Below, one piece after another: positions 19,349-31,048 of a stretch of DNA of 48,498 bases. The notes under the pieces are model-generated. The model ran no database searches and was not told the origin of the DNA. It saw only the letters and a list, made by a program, of their open reading frames with translations. Within the stretch, counting starts at the first letter, position 1; every line of letters begins with the position of its first letter. Origin of the DNA: Candidatus Tenebribacter burtonii (lineage in GTDB: Bacteria > Cloacimonadota > Cloacimonadia > Cloacimonadales > TCS61); assembly GCA_030765625.1 (NCBI GenBank), contig JAVCCF010000057.1, positions 1 to 48,498 of the forward strand. The letters run 5' to 3'. Position numbers and translations under genes: made by a program.

Positions 19349-20866
19349 TCAATACTTAAATATATTTTCAATAATATCCGAAGGGATGATAGAAGCTGGT
19401 TTGCGGATTTCTGCAAGCTTTTCTGCGGTTTCTCCCATGAGGAATGAAGCCGATACTGCAGCATTTTTTAGTGAAAGTTGTTGCCCTGCAAATGAAGTAA
19501 TAATACCGGCAAGTACGTCACCGCTCCCACCTGTGGAGAGTCCGTCATTTCCGGTTGTATCAAAGATAAATCCGGTTTTGCCACAATAAATAGAAGTTGC
19601 ACTTTTAAGCAGAACATTACATTTATATTTAGCTACAAAATTCTGTAAGTATCGTAGAGGATCTAATAAAATATCTTCGGTTGTAACATCACAAAGTCGT
19701 GCAAACTCACCAATATGTGGAGTAAGAATTACTTGTTTGCCGGAAATATTTTCAAGAATATTTTTATTATCAGCAATGATGTTTAGCGCATCTGCATCCA
19801 AAATTAGGGGTTTGTTCCAGAAAACAGTTATCTGATCTAATAAATCATACATCTCTTTAGATATCCCAATTCCAGGACCAATTAATAGAACATCCATTGA
19901 ATTGAGTTTATTGAAGAATTCACTCAACCCCTCTGATTCCAATAAATTGGACTTTTCTCCCTTTCCAAAGGGGAGCTTAGGAATTATATATGTCATTATT
20001 TCCAGTAATTGATTCTCAAAAATTGTTTCCAGACCCTGTAAGTGAAAAAGTGTGATCATTCCTGCACCTGCACGAAGAGCCGCTTTTGATGCCAGAATAG
20101 CAGCACCGGTAAATCCTGGAGAACCGGCAATAATTCCGACCTTTCCATAATTTCCTTTGTGAGAAAATCTGCTTCGGTAAGGGAACACAACATTATCATA
20201 TGTTGCAAGTTTTCCTTTTAAAGGAAATTGTAAGAAAACGTCCCCGGGAATACCAATATCAATAACCAGAATTTCACTGCTTTTTTTTCTTCCTTCTCCC
20301 AATAATTGACCATACTTCATAGCAGCCATTGTGAGTGTAAAATAAGCTTTTATGGCATTTTTTGCCTGCCCTGTATTCGCATCAATCCCACTGGCAATAT
20401 CGATAGCTACAATAGTTTTTTCAGATTCATTTATTTTATTTATTACATTCGCTTGCCAGCCCTTTATTTTGCCCTTTAATCCGACTCCAAAGATAGCATC
20501 AATTATCAGATCGAAATCATTGAGGTCATCCGGTTCTTTTTCAATTTTATTTATTGAGATACCAAGTTCCTTGCATCTATTAAAATTGATAAGAGTTTCC
20601 GGACTCATTTTATCTGTGCTACCCATTAAGAATATTTTAGATAAGTGCTTCCAATTATGCAAATATCTGGCAACGACAAATCCATCTCCACCGTTATTTC
20701 CGCTTCCACAAAAAATTGCAATTTTACTTTCCGGTAATATTAGATCATTTATAAATTTGCTGCATTCTTTCCCAGCATTTTCCATAAGTTCTTGTCCGGG
20801 AATTCCAATATTTTCAATTGTATATTTATCAATTGCATACATCTCTTCACGGGAAAGTACAAACAT
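19349..20866 (-). CDS. nnr: Bifunctional NAD(P)H-hydrate epimerase / ADP-dependent dehydratase
   Basis: A 505-residue two-domain enzyme that repairs damaged NAD(P)HX. The N-terminal YjeF_N epimerase domain (about 1-215) shows 'FCGSGNNGGDGFVVARYL', 'DAIFGVGLKG' and 'AIDIASGIDANTG'. The C-terminal ribokinase-like dehydratase domain (about 225-505) shows 'VGIIAGSPGFTGAAILASKAA', 'DADALNI', 'LTPHIGEFARL' and the catalytic 'GNDGLSTGGSGDVLAGII'. Both domains look intact and length is normal. It stands slightly apart (about 100 bases) from the leftward operon upstream. AGAGGAA serves as ribosome site. Confidence 0.95.
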   Translation of the reverse strand: MFVLSREEMYAIDKYTIENIGIPGQELMENAGKECSKFINDLILPESKIAIFCGSGNNGGDGFVVARYLHNWKHLSKIFLMGSTDKMSPETLINFNRCKELGISINKIEKEPDDLNDFDLIIDAIFGVGLKGKIKGWQANVINKINESEKTIVAIDIASGIDANTGQAKNAIKAYFTLTMAAMKYGQLLGEGRKKSSEILVIDIGIPGDVFLQFPLKGKLATYDNVVFPYRSRFSHKGNYGKVGIIAGSPGFTGAAILASKAALRAGAGMITLFHLQGLETIFENQLLEIMTYIIPKLPFGKGEKSNLLESEGLSEFFNKLNSMDVLLIGPGIGISKEMYDLLDQITVFWNKPLILDADALNIIADNKNILENISGKQVILTPHIGEFARLCDVTTEDILLDPLRYLQNFVAKYKCNVLLKSATSIYCGKTGFIFDTTGNDGLSTGGSGDVLAGIITSFAGQQLSLKNAAVSASFLMGETAEKLAEIRKPASIIPSDIIENIFKY

Positions 20867-20968: not shown

Positions 20969-22204
20969 TTATACTTTCGGCAGCACGATCTCAAATGTTG
21001 TCCCAACTTCTACATCACTTTCTAAAACTCTTATTTTTCCATTATGATATTCTTCTACGATACGTCGTGCTAAACTTAGTCCTAAGCCCCAACCACGTTC
21101 TTTATTAGTAACTCCGGGACGGAATATTTTCTTAAACATTTTCTTCGGCATTCCATTTCCTTCATCTGCAATATGAATATACATTTTATTTTTATGTGAA
21201 AAAGCTTTCACACCAATAATTCCACCTTTTTTTTTCATCGAATCAATACAATTTTTAAACATATTTTCTAAAGTCCATTTTATCAGATCGGGATCTAAGT
21301 TTATCTTTTTATCTTTAATTTCACTTTCAAATTTAATTTCAATTTTGTTGGAAATCACAGGTAATCTTTGTTCAAAATATTCTATAGTTTCCTCAATGAT
21401 ATTATGCAGACTGCAGGATTGAAACTTCAATACAGAACCCACCTTACCAAAACGTGAAGCAATCTTACTTAGTCTTTCTACATCGCTATGCATAAAGTTC
21501 AGCATATCTTGAAGTTTTTTTCCGTTTTTGCAATTTACCATTTTAGGATATAACACATCTATCCAGCCGCCCAATGACGAAAGAGGTGTTCCAAATTGAT
21601 GCGCAGTTTCTTTTGCCAAGCCTACCCAGAGAATATCACGTTCTGTTTTTTTTATTGTATAAACTCCATACATTCCCAAAAAAATATAAAGAAATATAAA
21701 GCCCATACCTACATAAGGCATCATTTTTAGCTGAATCATCGTTTGAGAATCACCATAAAATACATAGCTGTAAATTTTATCATCGTCATCACTTATTTTA
21801 AGCGGGATCATCGAGTGTTTTGATTCCATTTTTTTTACCATGTTTATCAGTATGTTTTGTTGCCGTGTTTCCAATTGATTGAAATCATCTTTTGGAATAT
21901 CTATGTTTTCCCAGGAAAATGGTGATTTCAGGCTATCGGTAAGAATAATAGGATAATCAATTCCGGGTAAAATTTCTTCCATGAAATATTGGAACAAAAA
22001 TTGTTCCAGATTTACATCGGCTGGCATACCAACAAATTTTGAGTAAAGATCAGGTACGATCTGCACATCTTTTTTTACATTATTAATAACAACATTTGTA
22101 AAAATAATGAATAGAACAAGCAGAAGCACGCTTCCAGCAATAAAATATATTTTAAGAATAAGATTTCTTTTACTCGCTTTCTTTTGCAATTTCCCAGATT
22201 TCAT
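20969..22204 (-). CDS. Membrane sensor histidine kinase
   Basis: A 411-residue kinase. Two transmembrane helices (about 15-40 and 163-183) enclose a periplasmic sensing region of about 120 residues with no recognised domain. There is no HAMP domain: the second helix runs almost directly into the dimerisation helix with the phospho-accepting H202 in 'LAKETAHQFGTPLSSLGGW'. The ATPase domain has an N box ('ENMFKNCIDSMKKKGG'), G1 'ADEGNGMP' and G2 'GWGLGLSLARRIVEE'. The last transmembrane-proximal H-box 'HQFGTPLSS' form is typical of kinases in this bacterial group. Its start lies 35 bases inside mazG, with a GGAGC site in the mazG coding region. Its likely partner is the receiver protein at 23.9 kb. 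Confidence 0.93.
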   Translation of the reverse strand: MKSGKLQKKASKRNLILKIYFIAGSVLLLVLFIIFTNVVINNVKKDVQIVPDLYSKFVGMPADVNLEQFLFQYFMEEILPGIDYPIILTDSLKSPFSWENIDIPKDDFNQLETRQQNILINMVKKMESKHSMIPLKISDDDDKIYSYVFYGDSQTMIQLKMMPYVGMGFIFLYIFLGMYGVYTIKKTERDILWVGLAKETAHQFGTPLSSLGGWIDVLYPKMVNCKNGKKLQDMLNFMHSDVERLSKIASRFGKVGSVLKFQSCSLHNIIEETIEYFEQRLPVISNKIEIKFESEIKDKKINLDPDLIKWTLENMFKNCIDSMKKKGGIIGVKAFSHKNKMYIHIADEGNGMPKKMFKKIFRPGVTNKERGWGLGLSLARRIVEEYHNGKIRVLESDVEVGTTFEIVLPKV

Positions 22205-22943
22205 CTAATTGCTCCAAGCTTGCATCAAGCATTTTTTTGCCATTGTTAATAAAATGACTTTCTACCTTTTTAAAACGGTTCTCAAATTTTTTGATTGTTT
22301 TTCTTAATGCAGTTTCTGTATCAAATCCAGATTTCCTGGCAATATTAACTATTGAAAAAAGCATATCACCCAATTCATTCTGCATTTCTTCGATGTTTTT
22401 GTTTTCATAAGCTTCCTGAAATTCCTTAACTTCTTCTTCCAGTTTATCTACTGCAGGAGCCAAATTGGGCCAGTCAAAACCTACAGAAGCAGCTTTTTCC
22501 TGCATTCTTTGTGCTACGATAAGTGCCGGCATTTTTTGCGGGATTCCATCAATTACAGAAGTACGGGTTTGCTTTTTTTCTTCCAGTTTTATCCGCTCCC
22601 AATTCATCTTTACGCCTTCAGCATCAGTAGCATGACCATCTCCAAAAATATGCGGATGGCGCCGGATTAATTTATCATTAATTTGTGTAAGTACGTCTTC
22701 CATCTTGAATTTATTATCTTCTCTGGCAATTTGCACCTGCATCACGATGTGCAGCATGAGGTCACCTAACTCTTCGGATAGATGCTGGTAGTTTTTATTT
22801 TCTATTGCTTCAACAGATTCATAAAGCTCTTCTATAAAATTAGGAATTAAGGATTCGTGGGTCTGTTTTAAATCCCACGGGCAGCCATTTTCTTTATTAC
22901 GTAGTTTTTCAATAACATTTATAAGTTCATCAAATTCTTTCAT
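22170..22943 (-). CDS. mazG: Nucleoside triphosphate pyrophosphohydrolase MazG
   Basis: A 257-residue tandem-MazG protein that hydrolyses NTPs or dNTPs to monophosphates and pyrophosphate, cleaning the nucleotide pool and, in E. coli, lowering ppGpp. The N-terminal domain has 'ENGCPWDLKQTHESL' and the metal ligands EELYE...EELGD ('LSEELGDLMLHIV'). The C-terminal domain repeats the pattern with 'KLEEEVKEFQEAYENK' and 'NELGDMLFSIVNIARK'. Length matches E. coli MazG. The end overlaps the kinase gene by 35 bases and the gene follows the gluzincin by 20 bases, so it belongs to the same operon. Confidence 0.95.
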   Translation of the reverse strand: MKEFDELINVIEKLRNKENGCPWDLKQTHESLIPNFIEELYESVEAIENKNYQHLSEELGDLMLHIVMQVQIAREDNKFKMEDVLTQINDKLIRRHPHIFGDGHATDAEGVKMNWERIKLEEKKQTRTSVIDGIPQKMPALIVAQRMQEKAASVGFDWPNLAPAVDKLEEEVKEFQEAYENKNIEEMQNELGDMLFSIVNIARKSGFDTETALRKTIKKFENRFKKVESHFINNGKKMLDASLEQLDEIWEIAKESE

Positions 22944-22963: not shown

Positions 22964-23890
22964 TTATTCTTCACCATTTATTTCTTCAGGTACAATATCA
23001 ATATTGTCTCCCCAGCTTTCAACTGTTTTTTTATTCTTTATTTTTTTTCTTATCACACCCACTATCAAAATAAGTGGAAGCACGCCCCAAATTAATCCGG
23101 AAGAAGCCATTAATATCTCTGTTCTGAAATGAGTTCTGGAATAATCTTCAAATTGGTCTGAGAATGTTCTGGTTGTCATGAAGAAGCTATTTAAAAAGGC
23201 TCTTTCGAAGTTCCCTGTAGTTTCGGCTTTATCCCAGAGCAAATAGAATGATCCTCTTTTTTTTGAGTAGAGATATTTAACTGCTAACCCAGATTTTGCA
23301 TAAAATGATTCCCACTCGATCATATTTTCTGGATAGGTTTTTTTCATTTTTTCAAGTGGAAGAGAATTTCCTAAAATATAATTTTTTGCGAAATTTAATT
23401 CACGTTCAATTCCCATATTATTAGAAAAAAATACAGCCATACCCTCGTTGAACCAGAGCGGTGGATCTTTCCAAAAAGAACCAACAAAATGATGAATGTA
23501 TTCATGCAGTAATAGTTTATGGATATTAGAAATATTTTTAAGATACTTTGGATTTTTCAAAAAAATGGTTTTATTCCTTCTATTATAAAAACCTGAGCTA
23601 TGTTCCAAAATTGTTGAGTGTTTTTGTACCCAATCATCATAAACCCTATTATCTGGTGCTATGATCACATTTACAGGAATATCAAGATATGAACCTACAC
23701 TTTTTTGAAATGATTGAATATCTTTATCTAACTGGACAATAAATTGGAAAGCTGCAGTTGTATCCTTAGCTTCTGCAAACAAAATAATATCCTGAAACTG
23801 GATCTTTTCATAATTGATATTTACGGCTAATAATGAAGAGAGAAAACAAAACAAGATGAGAAAATTAAGTATGTATTTTAGCCTGAACGT
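22964..23890 (-). CDS. Membrane-bound gluzincin (peptidase MA-like), probable ACG start
   Basis: A zinc-peptidase-like protein with 'LLHEYIHHFV' (HExxH; H129, E130, H133 in the numbering used here) and the third ligand in 'WFNEGMAVFF' (E149), the gluzincin pattern of the peptidase MA family. One hydrophobic helix near the C-terminus (about 262-280) precedes a basic cytoplasmic tail. The first ATG/GTG/TTG in frame is TTG at 23854, which would cut a signal peptide in half. Twelve codons earlier an in-frame ACG at 23890 follows GGGAG by six bases and gives a complete signal sequence (FRLKYILNFLILFCFLSSLL). I therefore place the start there, giving 308 residues. It sits between the response regulator and mazG. 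Confidence 0.75.
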   Translation of the reverse strand, partial: TFRLKYILNFLILFCFLSSLLAVNINYEKIQFQDIILFAEAKDTTAAFQFIVQLDKDIQSFQKSVGSYLDIPVNVIIAPDNRVYDDWVQKHSTILEHSSGFYNRRNKTIFLKNPKYLKNISNIHKLLLHEYIHHFVGSFWKDPPLWFNEGMAVFFSNNMGIERELNFAKNYILGNSLPLEKMKKTYPENMIEWESFYAKSGLAVKYLYSKKRGSFYLLWDKAETTGNFERAFLNSFFMTTRTFSDQFEDYSRTHFRTEILMASSGLIWGVLPLILIVGVIRKKIKNKKTVESWGDNIDIVPEEINGEE

Positions 23891-23891
23891 G

Positions 23892-24269
23892 TTATTCTCC
23901 CAGAATACGTTTTTTTATTTTATCTGTGAGTTTTTTTATGTCAAACGGTTTAAAGATTACATCTTGTAATCCGGCTTGTTTAGATTTCACGACAACATGA
24001 TCAGGATCATATCCAAAGCCAGTCATCATAATTATCGGCAAATGCTCATTATATTCTTTAGCACGGGAATAGAGTTCATAGCCGTCCATATCCGGCATGG
24101 CAATATCTGTAAGTAAAAGATCGATACCTCCAGTCATAATTCTATTTAATGCTGAATATACTTCATTTTCGCAGATAACTTCCAATTCGGAACAACATTC
24201 TTCCAGTTCAATTTTAAGGTAATCTGTTATCGCAACATCATCATCTACGATTAAAATTCTATGACCCAT
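23892..24269 (-). CDS. Single-domain response regulator
   Basis: A 125-residue CheY-like receiver with no output domain. The acidic pocket is 'LIVDDDVA', the phosphorylation site is D55 in 'LLLTDIAMPDMDGYEL', the conserved Thr lies in 'IIMMTGFG' and the Lys in 'VIFKPFD'. The ATG at 24269 has AGAGG eight bases before it; a TTG two codons upstream is a weaker alternative. Without an output domain it must act by protein contact or as a phosphate relay. The histidine kinase two genes downstream in the same direction is the natural partner. The stop codon overlaps the region containing the ribosome site of the gluzincin gene. Confidence 0.92.
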   Translation of the reverse strand: MGHRILIVDDDVAITDYLKIELEECCSELEVICENEVYSALNRIMTGGIDLLLTDIAMPDMDGYELYSRAKEYNEHLPIIMMTGFGYDPDHVVVKSKQAGLQDVIFKPFDIKKLTDKIKKRILGE

Positions 24270-24296
24270 TGCCAAACCTCTGCTTAATTATTCATA

Positions 24297-25283
24297 TCAG
24301 GTAAGATCCGATCTAATCTTAAGCTGTGACTTTTTATAGAATTCATTTATTTTATCAAGAATTATTTTATCATTTTTGTTTTTGAGATATTTATAAACTA
24401 TCCAGCGTTCTACAAGTTGATCTTTATTGAAAGCCAGTACCTCGTTATCCCTGAATTCTACAGTAATAAGCGGGGATTTGTCTTTTTTCCCATTCTCGAT
24501 AATTTCGTTCAATCTTCCGTCTTTAATTATTAAAGTTCTTCCACTTTCATTAAAGTCCAAATTTAAATTTTTGGTAATCTTCAAGAATTTCAGGTATTCA
24601 AAATATCTCTCAATTAAATTAATTTTATTATTTAGTGTTTCAGCTTTTTCAAATTGAAGATCATCAAACAACTTTTTATATTCTTCTTGTTTGGAAGATA
24701 AGAAATCTATGGGTGGAATTATGTATGGAAGAATGGCCTTAGAGTAAGTTTCATATTTTTCTTTTATGCACCAGCCAGGGCATTTATCATTTTTGTATCT
24801 CTCGCAGGGATATGGTTTTTCATCCGGACAAATCGGAAATTGAAACAATTCTGACATGGCATCCAGCAAATCAAATAAAAAAAATCTATCTCTGAAAGGT
24901 CCAATATAAAACCTGTTTTCTTGCGTATCTTCAACAACTTTGATGTATGGCGGCTCATCAAAATCAATTCCAAGATAAACATATCCTTCATAAGATTTTA
25001 TTATAGAATTAAATTCCGGATAACTTTTATTTTCCAATTTTTTTTGATGAATAAATGCTGCAAATATTGATGTGTGCTTCTTAAAACCAATTCTAACTGT
25101 TTGAGAAACAAGCTGAAAAATATTTTTATCATCTTTGGCAACTTTAAAAAATCGTCTGATGCTTTTATCAAGATTTGACGTTTTATTAACATATAAAATT
25201 TTACTTTCATTCAATAAGGTAAAAATACCAGCTCCAGATGGGATTTTTTGTTTATCAATTTCTGTTTTATTAAATTTAATCAT
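24297..25283 (-). CDS. UvrC-like protein with degenerate GIY-YIG domain and cysteine cluster
   Basis: A 328-residue protein resembling the N-terminal half of UvrC. Residues 15-95 align with the GIY-YIG nuclease, but GIY reads GIF (19-21), YVG reads YVN (31-33), and the expected catalytic Arg and Glu are not evident. Then comes the UvrC-type stretch 'RFYIGPFRDRFFLFDLLDAM' and a cysteine cluster C152-x7-C160-x7-C168-x3-C172 ('CERYKNDKCPGWC'), close to the iron-sulfur ligands of UvrC. A UVR-like helix pair follows (about 200-232, 'KLFDDLQFEKAETLNNKI'). The RNase H-like second nuclease half is absent. It is first in the operon with the receiver, gluzincin, mazG and kinase. No nuclease activity is expected; a binding or adaptor role is my inference. 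Confidence 0.7.
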   Translation of the reverse strand: MIKFNKTEIDKQKIPSGAGIFTLLNESKILYVNKTSNLDKSIRRFFKVAKDDKNIFQLVSQTVRIGFKKHTSIFAAFIHQKKLENKSYPEFNSIIKSYEGYVYLGIDFDEPPYIKVVEDTQENRFYIGPFRDRFFLFDLLDAMSELFQFPICPDEKPYPCERYKNDKCPGWCIKEKYETYSKAILPYIIPPIDFLSSKQEEYKKLFDDLQFEKAETLNNKINLIERYFEYLKFLKITKNLNLDFNESGRTLIIKDGRLNEIIENGKKDKSPLITVEFRDNEVLAFNKDQLVERWIVYKYLKNKNDKIILDKINEFYKKSQLKIRSDLT

Positions 25284-26104: not shown

Positions 26105-27133
26105 TTATTCTGCTATTATCCTAATTGTTTTATATTTTTCTTCCTTACCAAGTTTTCTTAATAATTCATTTACTTCTTTTCTTGTTTCATTTAGCGTTAA
26201 TTCTCTATTAATTGTAATATCATTGATCATTATAAGTTGCTTCATTTTTGATTTCAGCTGATTCTCCGTCTGTTTACGCTCGCTTATATCGCGGGCAAAA
26301 CCCAGAATCATTCCCTCATTATTTATGATTACTGGGTGGGTTAATATTTCTACTTCAACTGTTTAACCATTCTTTCTTTTTAATGTTTACTCGTCAGGTC
26401 CAATGGATTCACCATTTATGTTTCTTGCTAAGACATCTAAAGCTTTCTTGGCTTGGATTGGGTATAGTATTCCAACCTCCACAAAATTTTTACCTATGAG
26501 TTCTTCCCGTGGGTAACCCAGTAATTTTTCAGCTGCTTTGTTTCCATCAATGAATTTGCCTGTAAAATCATTAAGATAGTAAGCATCTGGTGCAGATTCA
26601 AATAAAATATTTAGTCTTTCTTCTGAGTTTTTTAATGCTTCTTCTGCTTTCTTACGCTTGGTGATTTCTATCCCGATACTGAGAACTCCCGATGTTTCTC
26701 CATTTTCGTTTTTTAAAACAGTATTTTCCCAATTGGTAATTCTTTCAGAACTATCTTTGCATAAAATTGGATTTTCATAGGAAGAAACATCCGGCATTTC
26801 TTTGAGAACATCTTGGAAAACTTCTGGAATCACAGATCCATTGCGTTTAGAAATGAAAAGATCAAACCAATTCTTTCCCAGAACTTCATCCTTTTTATAG
26901 CCGGTAAGTTTTTCTGCAAATTTATTAAAGAGAGTGATATTGGCATTTACATCTAAAGTAAGAATAAATGCATTGGCATTATCCAGAAGGATTTTGGAGA
27001 ATTCTTTTTCTGTTGTTTGCACATCTTTATCCAATTTGCGTTCACTTCCAGATTTTTTCAAATCATCAATTTTTGCTCGTAACTGATCTATCTCTTTCAT
27101 TAGTTGTTCTTTGCTTTTTTCAGAATTCTTCAT
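26105..27133 (-). pseudogene. PAS-domain sensor protein interrupted by two in-frame stops
   Basis: One continuous reading frame of 343 codons is broken by two TAA codons, at 26387-26389 and 26363-26365. The N-terminal 248 residues hold a coiled coil (1-45) and two PAS units (about 50-165 and 170 on; 'FNKFAEKLTGYKKDEVLGKNWFDLF', 'GVLSIGIEITKRKKAE'). Between the stops the frame reads TLKRKNG, and after the second it continues TVEVEILTHPVIINNEG...FARDISERKQ, exactly the expected end of a PAS domain, then a helical tail 'MNDITINRELTLNETRKEVNELL' type. No kinase domain follows. The break fits two nonsense changes (probably Tyr and Glu originally). The 5' fragment could still be translated. GGAGG precedes the ATG. 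Confidence 0.8.
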
Positions 27134-27285: not shown

Positions 27286-27643
27286 TATATTCCTCTTAGA
27301 TGATCATATTTTGAGTTTTGTAATCTTTTTTTACAAGAGAATGTCTTCTTCGAAGTTCTTAAGTATAATTATAAATTTTAAAATTTTAATTATGTCTACA
27401 AGGAATTTAATCACTCTACTCACAATTTCACCAATTCCAGCCTTCTTAAGTTGAACTTATTAACAAGTATTAATGAGAAAAGTGCCTAAGTTAATAAGTA
27501 AAAGTAGAATATTGTTCCGGTTTATCAGCAAAAAGACAGATCGTATTAAATCTTTTCTTCCTCTTTCGCTTATTTAGCGAGTATGTTTTTTAATATAAGT
27601 CATTATTCTTGACGTTATCAAGTCTATTTTCAAATTGCAATTT
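27286..27643. other. AT-rich gap between the PAS pseudogene region and mfd
   Basis: About 350 bases without a recognisable gene. On the minus strand an open stretch of about 40 codons (roughly 27330-27455, encoding 'GIGEIVSRVIKFLVDIIKIL'-like residues) has no convincing start or ribosome site and may be a remnant or chance. A small hairpin TCGCT/AGCGA lies at 27566-27580. TTGACG at 27609-27614 could be a -35 element for mfd, but the -10 region is poor. Confidence 0.4.
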
Positions 27644-30600
27644 ATGAGTACATTTTATAGTAAAATTAGATCTCTGATAGATAAATCGGAGTTCATAAAA
27701 AAAATCGATGCTGAAATTGCTGAGAATAAAATCGGGGATTTGTTTTATAATCTTAATCGCTCTGCTAAATCATTGCTTCTGTCACGAGTATTCGAGCAAA
27801 CAGGTAAAAATATAATATTTGTAACTGCGGATGATAAAGTTGCAGAGGATTATCTGGAAGATCTTGATCTGTTGATTGGAAGAGACAGATCACATTTTTT
27901 ACCTGATTATGAAGTTTTACCTTATGAACAGCGTTCACCTCATTATGTGCTGCGAGGTCAAAGGATAGAGACTCTCACAGCGGCGGTATCTTCTAAAGCG
28001 GGAATTTATAATATTTCTATTCGCTCACTTCTGCGTAAAATAACTTCAGCAGCAATTTTTAAAGAGAATATAATCAGGATTTCTGTTAATGAAGAATATG
28101 ATCCCGATGTACTTATTTCTAATCTGGTTGGAATGGGATATGAGAATCAGTTTCAGGTTTCTAAAGTTGGAGAGATAGCCCGTCGTGGCGGTATCATTGA
28201 TGTGTTTAGTCCCAATTCTCATCGTCCAGTAAGAATCGAATTTTTTGGTGATATAATTGAATCGATCAGAGTATTTTCTGTAAATTCTCAACGTTCTACC
28301 GGTGAGGAATTAACTAAAGTAACTTTAATTCCCTCCCGTGAATTTTCGTTACACGATATAGATACAAATGAGAAAATGTGGCAAAATATCCATGATAATG
28401 GATTTTATGATGGAATTGAGCTTGATGTTTCTATGCTTATTCCCAAAATTGAAACTTTCTTGGAATATTTCTCACCTGAAAATTGCATAATTTTCTGGGA
28501 TGAATTTCAATATCTTCCTTCTTATTTAAAAGAAATATTTGAAGAAACAACCAATCTTTATCAAAAAATTAGAAATAAATTTAAAAATCGTATTATTCCT
28601 CAACCAGATGCTCTTTTTGCCAATAAACGCTTCGTAAACAAAATACTAAAGAAATATCCAAGTTATTTTCTTTCAGCTTCTTATCAGGAATTTAAAGAGA
28701 TCACAGCCAAATTCAAAGCTCCAGTAGTCTCTCAAATAAATCTGCAGGGAAATCTAGAATTATTTGAAGGTGAGCTCAAAGAAAAGCTGGAAACCGGTTA
28801 CAGAATCATTATACAATCTGATAATAGCAGTCAGAGCAAACGAATGCGTGATCTATTACCGCAATATGATGACAAGATTGATTTCACCATTGGTGTTTTA
28901 CAATCCGGATTTTATCTTACCGATGCTAAAATAGCAGTTTATACTGATCATGAAATTTTTAGTCGATATAAACGGAAACGTCATCAAAACAGGTTTTCCA
29001 AAGAAGAAGCTCTGGTAGATTATGATGCTTTAAAACCCGGAGATTATATTGTTCACATTGATCACGGAATTGGCATTTATGCAGGGTTAAAGAAATTAAA
29101 TATTGAAGGAAATATAATTGAGACTCTCACTTTGCGTTATGCTGGAAATGATGTAGTTTACGTTCCAACCTTTCAACTTTCGTTAGTTTCCAAATTTGTT
29201 TCGGAAGAAGGAATAACGCCTACGATTCACAGACTCGGCAGTAAGAAATGGGAAAATATGAAATCCCGGGCACAAAAACAAATCGAGCTTATTGCCGAAG
29301 ATCTGATAAAATTATATGCAGAACGAAAAGTTAAAAGAGGTATTGCCTTTGAACCCGATTCTGTCTGGCAAACCGAGATGGAGGAATCTTTCATCTACGA
29401 AGATACGCCAGATCAGAAGACAGCTACCGAAGAGATCAAGGCAGATATGGAAGATAATACTCCTATGGAACGTCTGTTATGTGGAGATGTGGGATTTGGC
29501 AAAACAGAAGTTGCTATCCGTGCTGCTTTCAAGGCTGTGAACAGCGGGTATCAAGTTGTCATATTGGTTCCAACAACACTTCTGGCTGAACAGCATTATC
29601 TCGTTTTTAAGGAAAGATTAGCCCAATATCCAGTGAGTATTGCCATGTTCAGTCGATTCCGTTCTAAAGCTAATATTAACAAGGATCTTGTAAAACTATC
29701 AACTGGTGAGATCGATATTGCCATTGGAACCCACCGCTTACTATCTAAAGATATTAATTACAAAAAACTTGGGCTTCTAATAATTGATGAAGAGCATCGA
29801 TTTGGTGTACGGCATAAAGATAAACTACGGCAGATAAAAACAAATGTAGATACACTTTATATGAGTGCAACACCAATTCCACGTACTATGTATATGGCAC
29901 TTTCTAAATTGAAGGAATTATCACTCATTCGTACTCCACCCAAAGCGAGATTACCAATAAGAACTGTTATTGTTCCTTACGATGTTAATATTATTAAAGA
30001 TGCTATTAACCGTGAAGTTGACCGTGGTGGACAGGTTTTCTTTGTTCATAACAGAGTACAGACAATAGAAAGCATCGCTGCCGAACTGCAGGAACTTCTT
30101 CCTCATGTAAGTTTTGAAATTGGGCATGGACAATTGCCAGAGAAACAGCTAGAAAGGATAACACTTGATTTTGCGCATCATAAATTCGATGTACTAATCG
30201 CAACTACAATAATCGAATCCGGCATTGATATTCCCAATGCTAATACAATGATAATAAATCGTACTGATATGTTCGGACTTGCCCAATTATATCAAATGCG
30301 CGGCAGAGTTGGAAGAAGTAATCGGCGTGCTTATGCGTATCTTATCATTCCGCCCAAACTGAATGAAATTGCACGCAAAAGATTGGAATCACTTATCGAA
30401 TATGAATCCTTGGGAAGCGGCTATCAAATAGCAATGCGTGATATGGAACTACGTGGTGCCGGATCACTTTTGGGAACAAAACAAAGCGGAATTATAAACT
30501 CAATTGGATTTAATTACTATAACCGTCTTTTAGAAAGTGCAATTAAAGAATTACAGGATAATGAATTTATTGGAGAATTAGAAAAAGAAAAACTTCTTCA

Positions 30601-31048
30601 TATAAAATTAGATATCGACCATTATTTTCATGAAATTTATATTTCTAATGAAAAAGAGAGATTGGAAATTTACAGGAAACTTTTGCATTTTACTTCATTA
30701 AGTGAATTTGACGATCTCGAAAAAGAACTAATTGATAGATTTGGCAAAATACCTGAAAAATCAGCAAATACAATCTTATATTATAAATTGCGCATGTTGG
30801 CTTTGCAAGCCAATCTTCGTTCCCTTGATATTATGAAAGATAATTTCATAATTGAATTCGATTCCAAACGTCTTCCATCCCGTTCATTGATCTCAAAAAT
30901 TATCGGTGAATTCAATTATCCAATCAATTTTGATACAACAAAAAATCTACGAATAGTTTTCAATATATCAGAGACAGCTAAAGCAGCCAAAAATAATCAC
31001 ATGAAAATTTCCCTTAACATATTGCAATTCATTACTAAAAATTCTTAA
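27644..31048 (+). CDS. mfd: Transcription-repair coupling factor
   Basis: An 1134-residue ATP-dependent translocase that removes RNA polymerase stalled at DNA lesions and recruits the UvrA/B machinery. It has an N-terminal UvrB-like module ('LPDYEVLPYEQRSPH', 'RRGGIIDVFSPN'), a CarD-like polymerase-interaction domain ('GDYIVHIDHGIGIYAGLKKL', about 464), and RecG-like helicase motors with Walker A 'CGDVGFGKTEVAIRAA' (about 613), 'IIDEEHRFGV' (about 710), 'YMSATPIPRTMYMAL' and 'QMRGRVGRS'. The C-terminal TRCF domain completes it. The ATG at 27644 is preferred over a TTG nine bases upstream. I see no Shine-Dalgarno sequence before either. Length is normal. Confidence 0.97.
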   Translation: MSTFYSKIRSLIDKSEFIKKIDAEIAENKIGDLFYNLNRSAKSLLLSRVFEQTGKNIIFVTADDKVAEDYLEDLDLLIGRDRSHFLPDYEVLPYEQRSPHYVLRGQRIETLTAAVSSKAGIYNISIRSLLRKITSAAIFKENIIRISVNEEYDPDVLISNLVGMGYENQFQVSKVGEIARRGGIIDVFSPNSHRPVRIEFFGDIIESIRVFSVNSQRSTGEELTKVTLIPSREFSLHDIDTNEKMWQNIHDNGFYDGIELDVSMLIPKIETFLEYFSPENCIIFWDEFQYLPSYLKEIFEETTNLYQKIRNKFKNRIIPQPDALFANKRFVNKILKKYPSYFLSASYQEFKEITAKFKAPVVSQINLQGNLELFEGELKEKLETGYRIIIQSDNSSQSKRMRDLLPQYDDKIDFTIGVLQSGFYLTDAKIAVYTDHEIFSRYKRKRHQNRFSKEEALVDYDALKPGDYIVHIDHGIGIYAGLKKLNIEGNIIETLTLRYAGNDVVYVPTFQLSLVSKFVSEEGITPTIHRLGSKKWENMKSRAQKQIELIAEDLIKLYAERKVKRGIAFEPDSVWQTEMEESFIYEDTPDQKTATEEIKADMEDNTPMERLLCGDVGFGKTEVAIRAAFKAVNSGYQVVILVPTTLLAEQHYLVFKERLAQYPVSIAMFSRFRSKANINKDLVKLSTGEIDIAIGTHRLLSKDINYKKLGLLIIDEEHRFGVRHKDKLRQIKTNVDTLYMSATPIPRTMYMALSKLKELSLIRTPPKARLPIRTVIVPYDVNIIKDAINREVDRGGQVFFVHNRVQTIESIAAELQELLPHVSFEIGHGQLPEKQLERITLDFAHHKFDVLIATTIIESGIDIPNANTMIINRTDMFGLAQLYQMRGRVGRSNRRAYAYLIIPPKLNEIARKRLESLIEYESLGSGYQIAMRDMELRGAGSLLGTKQSGIINSIGFNYYNRLLESAIKELQDNEFIGELEKEKLLHIKLDIDHYFHEIYISNEKERLEIYRKLLHFTSLSEFDDLEKELIDRFGKIPEKSANTILYYKLRMLALQANLRSLDIMKDNFIIEFDSKRLPSRSLISKIIGEFNYPINFDTTKNLRIVFNISETAKAAKNNHMKISLNILQFITKNS

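Follow-up and report, generated by a model that had tools for sequence, protein, structure and literature searches.

A UvrC/Cho-like protein of Cloacimonadales with a degenerate GIY-YIG domain and a retained four-cysteine cluster

What might a stand-alone copy of the N-terminal half of UvrC do once its cutting residues have decayed? This question is raised by an open reading frame in Candidatus Tenebribacter burtonii (contig JAVCCF010000057.1; the window, meaning the whole stretch analysed, covers positions 1 to 48,498, 48,498 nucleotides). In UvrC, four cysteines hold an iron-sulfur cluster and the UVR motif binds UvrB. To our knowledge, the role of this cluster is not settled, because it is inseparable from the two nuclease activities in UvrC. 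The frame and its parts are as follows.

24297..25283, minus strand: coding sequence of a predicted nuclease-dead UvrC/Cho-like ("UvrC-like") protein, 328 aa (profile, alignment, AF2 model)
24981..25283, minus strand: degenerate GIY-YIG domain, residues 1-101 (alignment to UvrC, AF2 fold)
24768..24830, minus strand: four-cysteine cluster C152/C160/C168/C172, at the UvrC [4Fe-4S] ligand positions (kept in 39/40 orthologues)
24594..24698, minus strand: UVR-like helix pair, residues 196 to ~230-237, with L209 and F211 kept and E..RD lost (AF2 model, alignment)
24375..24563, minus strand: C-terminal segment, residues 241-303, with family-specific invariant G256, R278, N280, E281, A284 and E292 (alignment, AF2)

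Homology, constraint and distribution

Profile searches related the UvrC-like protein to UvrC and to no unrelated family. TIGR00194 (uvrC, NCBIfam) matched at 3.4e-21, with residues 12-318 aligned to positions 6-312 of the 574 in the model, while the score of 75.6 bits, covering the N-terminal half only, lies far below the curated cut-off of 285.45. The best single NCBIfam match was PRK07883 (DEDD-exonuclease/UvrC-like, 8.4e-23), and a Pfam scan returned nothing above its cut-offs, neither GIY-YIG nor UVR. Compared with local UvrCs in hhalign, the orthologue family scored 99.7% probability (262 columns, E 8e-26), and the four cysteines fell in register. The AF2 model (mean pLDDT 93.2, pTM 0.89) matched only UvrC GIY-YIG domains among PDB entries at E < 0.001 (1ycz/1yd6 and mutants, TMt 0.81-0.87), so that the structural comparison proposed in an earlier, sequence-only reading of this DNA recovers the UvrC fold, with an active site that is not intact. 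That reading had also described the second nuclease half as absent, and in the TIGR00194 alignment the frame indeed stops where this half would start: the EndoV/RNase H-like nuclease and helix-hairpin-helix (HhH) are missing, the frame ends at 328 aa and the next gene is a response regulator.

The frame is a real gene under purifying selection. Orthologues of equal length (~320 aa; 80-27% identity), a confident fold and dN/dS of 0.10-0.17 against four relatives (with dS near saturation for the most distant of them) show it to be more than a chance frame, and the dN/dS range rules out a pseudogene. A truncated or split uvrC is ruled out by the complete uvrC (602 aa, 568.9 bits) on another contig, which answers the earlier question of whether the genome encodes one; uvrA, uvrB and mfd are also present. 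A defence-system gene was excluded, as PADLOC had no match to the protein (the neighbouring response regulator gave a weak receiver-domain match only), and a viral origin was rejected after fold comparison gave no significant viral match. Promoter and terminator scans around the gene yielded no more than chance expectation.

A profile scan of genome contigs, for which alignment A2 served as query (A1 being too diverse for the scan), recovered 37 loci, 36 of them labelled Cloacimonadota, the nearest including Candidatus Tenebribacter; the remaining locus, titled Armatimonadetes, appears to be G018, which is placed in the host's own taxonomic family. Orthologue alignments comprised 40 sequences (39 in one version). 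Tallied per genome among good genomes (≥90% completeness, ≤5% contamination), orthologues occur in 60 of 62 Cloacimonadales, the exceptions being G074 and G095 and the count including G011, whose 295-aa form was matched in two pieces; none was found in the 9 good genomes of the sister order, which have full uvrC only. A scan of 387 genomes, several hundred of them from other phyla, separated full-length orthologues (228-427 bits) from everything outside the family (≤123 bits; full UvrC or Cho-like proteins where inspected), and no orthologue was seen in the other phyla sampled. Full uvrC above cut-off coexists with the UvrC-like gene in 55 of the 60 genomes tested. This distribution is consistent with an order-wide, vertically kept paralogue of the UvrC N-terminal half.

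Catalytic residues, cysteines and UVR-like region

The GIY-YIG positions read G19-I-F21 and Y31-V-N33, as originally noted, and window residues F21, Y31, N33, K34, S41, Q80 and N92 correspond to Y19, Y30, G32, K33, R40, E79 and N91 of UvrC. Scoring six catalytic positions (UvrC Y19, Y30, K33, R40, E79 and N91) in 40 orthologues and 31 UvrC revealed a consistent difference: all 31 UvrC retain six of six, the orthologues 0-5 and mostly 2-3. The window protein keeps three (Y31, K34, N92), with F21, S41 and Q80 changed. Across the orthologues, the metal-binding Glu (Q in the window protein) is present in only 14/40, the GIY Tyr is replaced by F, V, I, L or M in 33/40 and the catalytic Arg persists in 8/40; the orthologue alignment holds no substitute constellation of conserved acidic residues in this domain. 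Relationship to UvrC and loss of nuclease activity are well supported, although weak activity is possible in some lineages, given orthologues with four or five of the six residues (five in L048).

The cysteines have fared differently: the C-x7-C-x7-C-x3-C pattern was correctly recognised (C152-x7-C160-x7-C168-x3-C172), and all four are retained in 39 of the 40 orthologues in register with UvrC. Silva et al. 2020 reportedly found a [4Fe-4S] cluster in UvrC, and the UvrC-like protein would bind one in the same way. Because the cutting residues are lost and the four cysteines kept, the cluster module seems to serve a purpose that does not require cutting. The sole orthologue with cysteine loss (L070:9139-10086, genome G049) has lost three of four; its genome, 93% complete, has intact uvrA and uvrB, but no uvrC was found in it. 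This single case, in which an assembly gap is possible, is suggestive of a function tied to UvrC.

The UVR motif described as kept is preserved only in its hydrophobic core. In the aligned helix pair, L209 is found in 39/40 and F211 in 40/40 orthologues, but the charged hallmark of the signature L.FE.AA..RD.I is lost, with E in 13/40 and RD gone, whereas E, R and D are invariant in UvrC. Because of this loss, and because Pfam UVR (PF02151) matches only 2 of 39 orthologues, weakly (best 0.08), canonical UvrB docking is doubtful. The C-terminal segment searched by itself had no significant match to other proteins, intact Cho-like proteins included. Invariant or near-invariant in the family are K81, Y101, Y103, T120, GPFxxRFF, R278, N280, E281 and E292, and these new residues show that the family is under a constraint specific to itself.

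Origin, known relatives and gene neighbourhood

Phylogenetic analysis recovered the UvrC-like family as one long-stemmed clade that lies outside every UvrC and has the intact Cho-like proteins as its closest neighbours, a group broken by one row labelled Cho-like that is a full UvrC (L183, 651 aa). Forcing the family together with Cloacimonadales UvrC cost 20 log units and was not rejected (AU p 0.144). Many end branches measure 1-1.4 in the family, compared with mostly 0.1-0.6 in Cloacimonadota UvrC. The preferred origin, at somewhat better than even odds, is decay of a Cho-like nuclease; duplication of the N-terminal half of uvrC is the alternative and is not favoured by the tree. The intact Cho-like proteins are not named as its evident nearest source, the C-terminal segment alone having no significant match to them.

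The "Cho-like" (C4-UvrBb) subfamily was defined with a single stand-alone member, within the nuclease superfamily, by Dunin-Horkawicz et al. 2006, its architecture being GIY-YIG, C4 and a UvrB-binding region with no EndoV or HhH (PMC1564403). The UvrC-like protein has the same domain order and length, its UVR part corresponding only partly; the published subfamily is treated as nucleases, whereas the active site here is degenerate order-wide and the UVR charges are lost. Another UvrC paralogue, an intact stand-alone Cho-like GIY-YIG nuclease of ~310-340 aa, appears sporadically in the host's taxonomic family, in three genomes (L171:5885-6817, L172:3670-4638, L074:2957-3928). While the fold is that of the GIY-YIG nuclease superfamily at large, the catalytic Tyr, Arg and Glu are not maintained. 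Relative to UvrC (TIGR00194), the protein is collinear with residues 1 to ~310, cluster cysteines included, but lacks the EndoV/RNase H-like nuclease and helix-hairpin-helix and coexists with complete UvrC. All 39 aligned orthologues match the UvrC-like part of the DEDD exonuclease-UvrC-like fusion (PRK07883, "Cho-like+Exo"), from which the family differs in lacking the exonuclease domain and in its degenerate GIY-YIG residues. E. coli Cho is likewise a stand-alone UvrC N-terminal half with a C4 region, but it is active as a 3' nuclease and carries a C-terminal domain of its own, and its model matches only 10 of 39 orthologues (best 1.6e-7). No description of an order-wide nuclease-dead UvrC-like/Cho-like family was found in the open-access papers searched.

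The surroundings of the gene in the window comprise the following.

23892..24275, minus strand: single-domain response regulator, 21 bp downstream of the UvrC-like gene (codirectional neighbour in 38/40 loci)
22964..23854, minus strand: gluzincin-like metallopeptidase (HEYIHH...E) with a C-terminal membrane segment (motif, neighbourhood)
22170..22943, minus strand: MazG nucleoside triphosphate pyrophosphohydrolase (profile match)
20969..22204, minus strand: sensor histidine kinase (profile match)
19349..20866, minus strand: NAD(P)HX epimerase/dehydratase (NnrD/YjeF), end of the conserved run (profile match)
27635..31048, plus strand: mfd (transcription-repair coupling factor), divergent from the UvrC-like gene (immediate divergent neighbour in 9 related loci)

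The survey of related genomes that had been suggested showed the gene order to be conserved. In 38 of 40 loci the response regulator lies 3' of the UvrC-like gene, either immediately or with a single gene (as a rule purC) in between, and in most loci the gaps measure roughly -8 to +45 bp. In the host's taxonomic family the order is UvrC-like gene, response regulator, peptidase, MazG, histidine kinase and NnrD; elsewhere in the Cloacimonadales, most families have purC (SAICAR synthase) between the UvrC-like gene and the regulator. The operon proposed earlier, headed by this gene and including a two-component pair, MazG and a membrane peptidase, therefore holds for its members but not for its arrangement: regulator and kinase genes are not neighbours, and another gene may precede the UvrC-like gene in the run, since the window has a same-strand FAH-hydrolase gene 87 bp upstream of it. 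The metallopeptidase gives a poor Pfam match and belongs to the same gene run across families.

On the other side, nine loci of the host's taxonomic family have mfd directly adjacent in divergent orientation, 55-393 bp away; three open reading frames intervene in the window, where a PAS-PAS protein without an output domain (26387-27133) lies between the two genes. The sister order shows OsmC-like (a label read from sequence), purC, response regulator and a 110-aa gene followed by full uvrC in convergent orientation, which indicates a long-standing association of the regulator/purC pair with uvrC itself. Six such loci (L156, L157, L158, L161, L165, L166) have full uvrC convergent with the regulator and a conserved 108-112-aa gene, beyond which purC and OsmC-like genes usually follow; this 110-aa family (KVSPKSHKK...) looks uncharacterised. 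The adjacency of mfd and the sister-order linkage of uvrC and regulator may be taken as hints of a repair link, while, mfd aside, none of the genes sharing the operon (purC, response regulator, peptidase, MazG, lpxK) belongs to DNA repair.

Possible functions and significance

The explanation that we favour, tentatively and at a little under an even chance, is a Cho-like/UvrC paralogue that does not cleave DNA and serves to modulate nucleotide excision repair (NER) or to sense damage. Its dead GIY-YIG face and helix pair would let the protein dock on DNA and/or an NER complex, where it would act as a non-incising modulator (competitor, damage/redox sensor or scaffold) and not as a nuclease. 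The sequence-only reading had likewise proposed a non-cleaving UvrC relative that might bind UvrB or DNA; the catalytic loss bears out the first part and binding to DNA or a role in NER is plausible, whereas binding to UvrB is made less likely by the lost UVR E, R and D.

At a low probability, the protein might instead be a cluster-bearing DNA-binding or redox sensor outside NER, reporting damage or oxidative state to the downstream response regulator with no role for UvrB. The regulator lies within two codirectional genes in nearly all loci, mostly across tight gaps, and adjoins full uvrC in the sister order, which together with the lost UVR charges and the family-specific invariant residue set would fit such signalling; gene order alone is no proof, however, as purC, lpxK, MazG and others share the run, and no known signal-transmitting domain was found in the protein. 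Doubtful, too, is a housekeeping or RNA-associated protein that reuses the UvrC fold without any DNA-repair link: the metabolic and envelope neighbours and faster evolution than UvrC are in line with it, whereas full collinearity with UvrC, cysteine cluster included, and the divergent mfd of the host's taxonomic family argue against it. An active but divergent GIY-YIG nuclease, incising 3' in the manner of Cho and with its active site rebuilt, is improbable despite the intact fold, the persistence of K34, Y31 and N92, the near-complete set in L048, the (near-)invariant K81 beside the lost Glu position and the intact Cho-like proteins in three related genomes, given the widespread loss of Glu, Tyr and Arg with no alternative acidic set.

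Alongside the favoured NER-modulator explanation, a more specific and rather unlikely proposal is that of a dead UvrC paralogue whose iron-sulfur module is kept for a non-cutting role (damage/redox sensing or NER gating) and which is coupled to a dedicated response regulator. Here a natural protein, fixed order-wide beside a normal UvrC, has seen its cutting residues decay while the four cysteines were kept, and this natural split therefore makes a non-catalytic role of the cluster testable. If the sensor or gating proposal is true, the UvrC cluster would have one function that is separable from incision. For the Cloacimonadota, the family suggests an additional layer of NER control.
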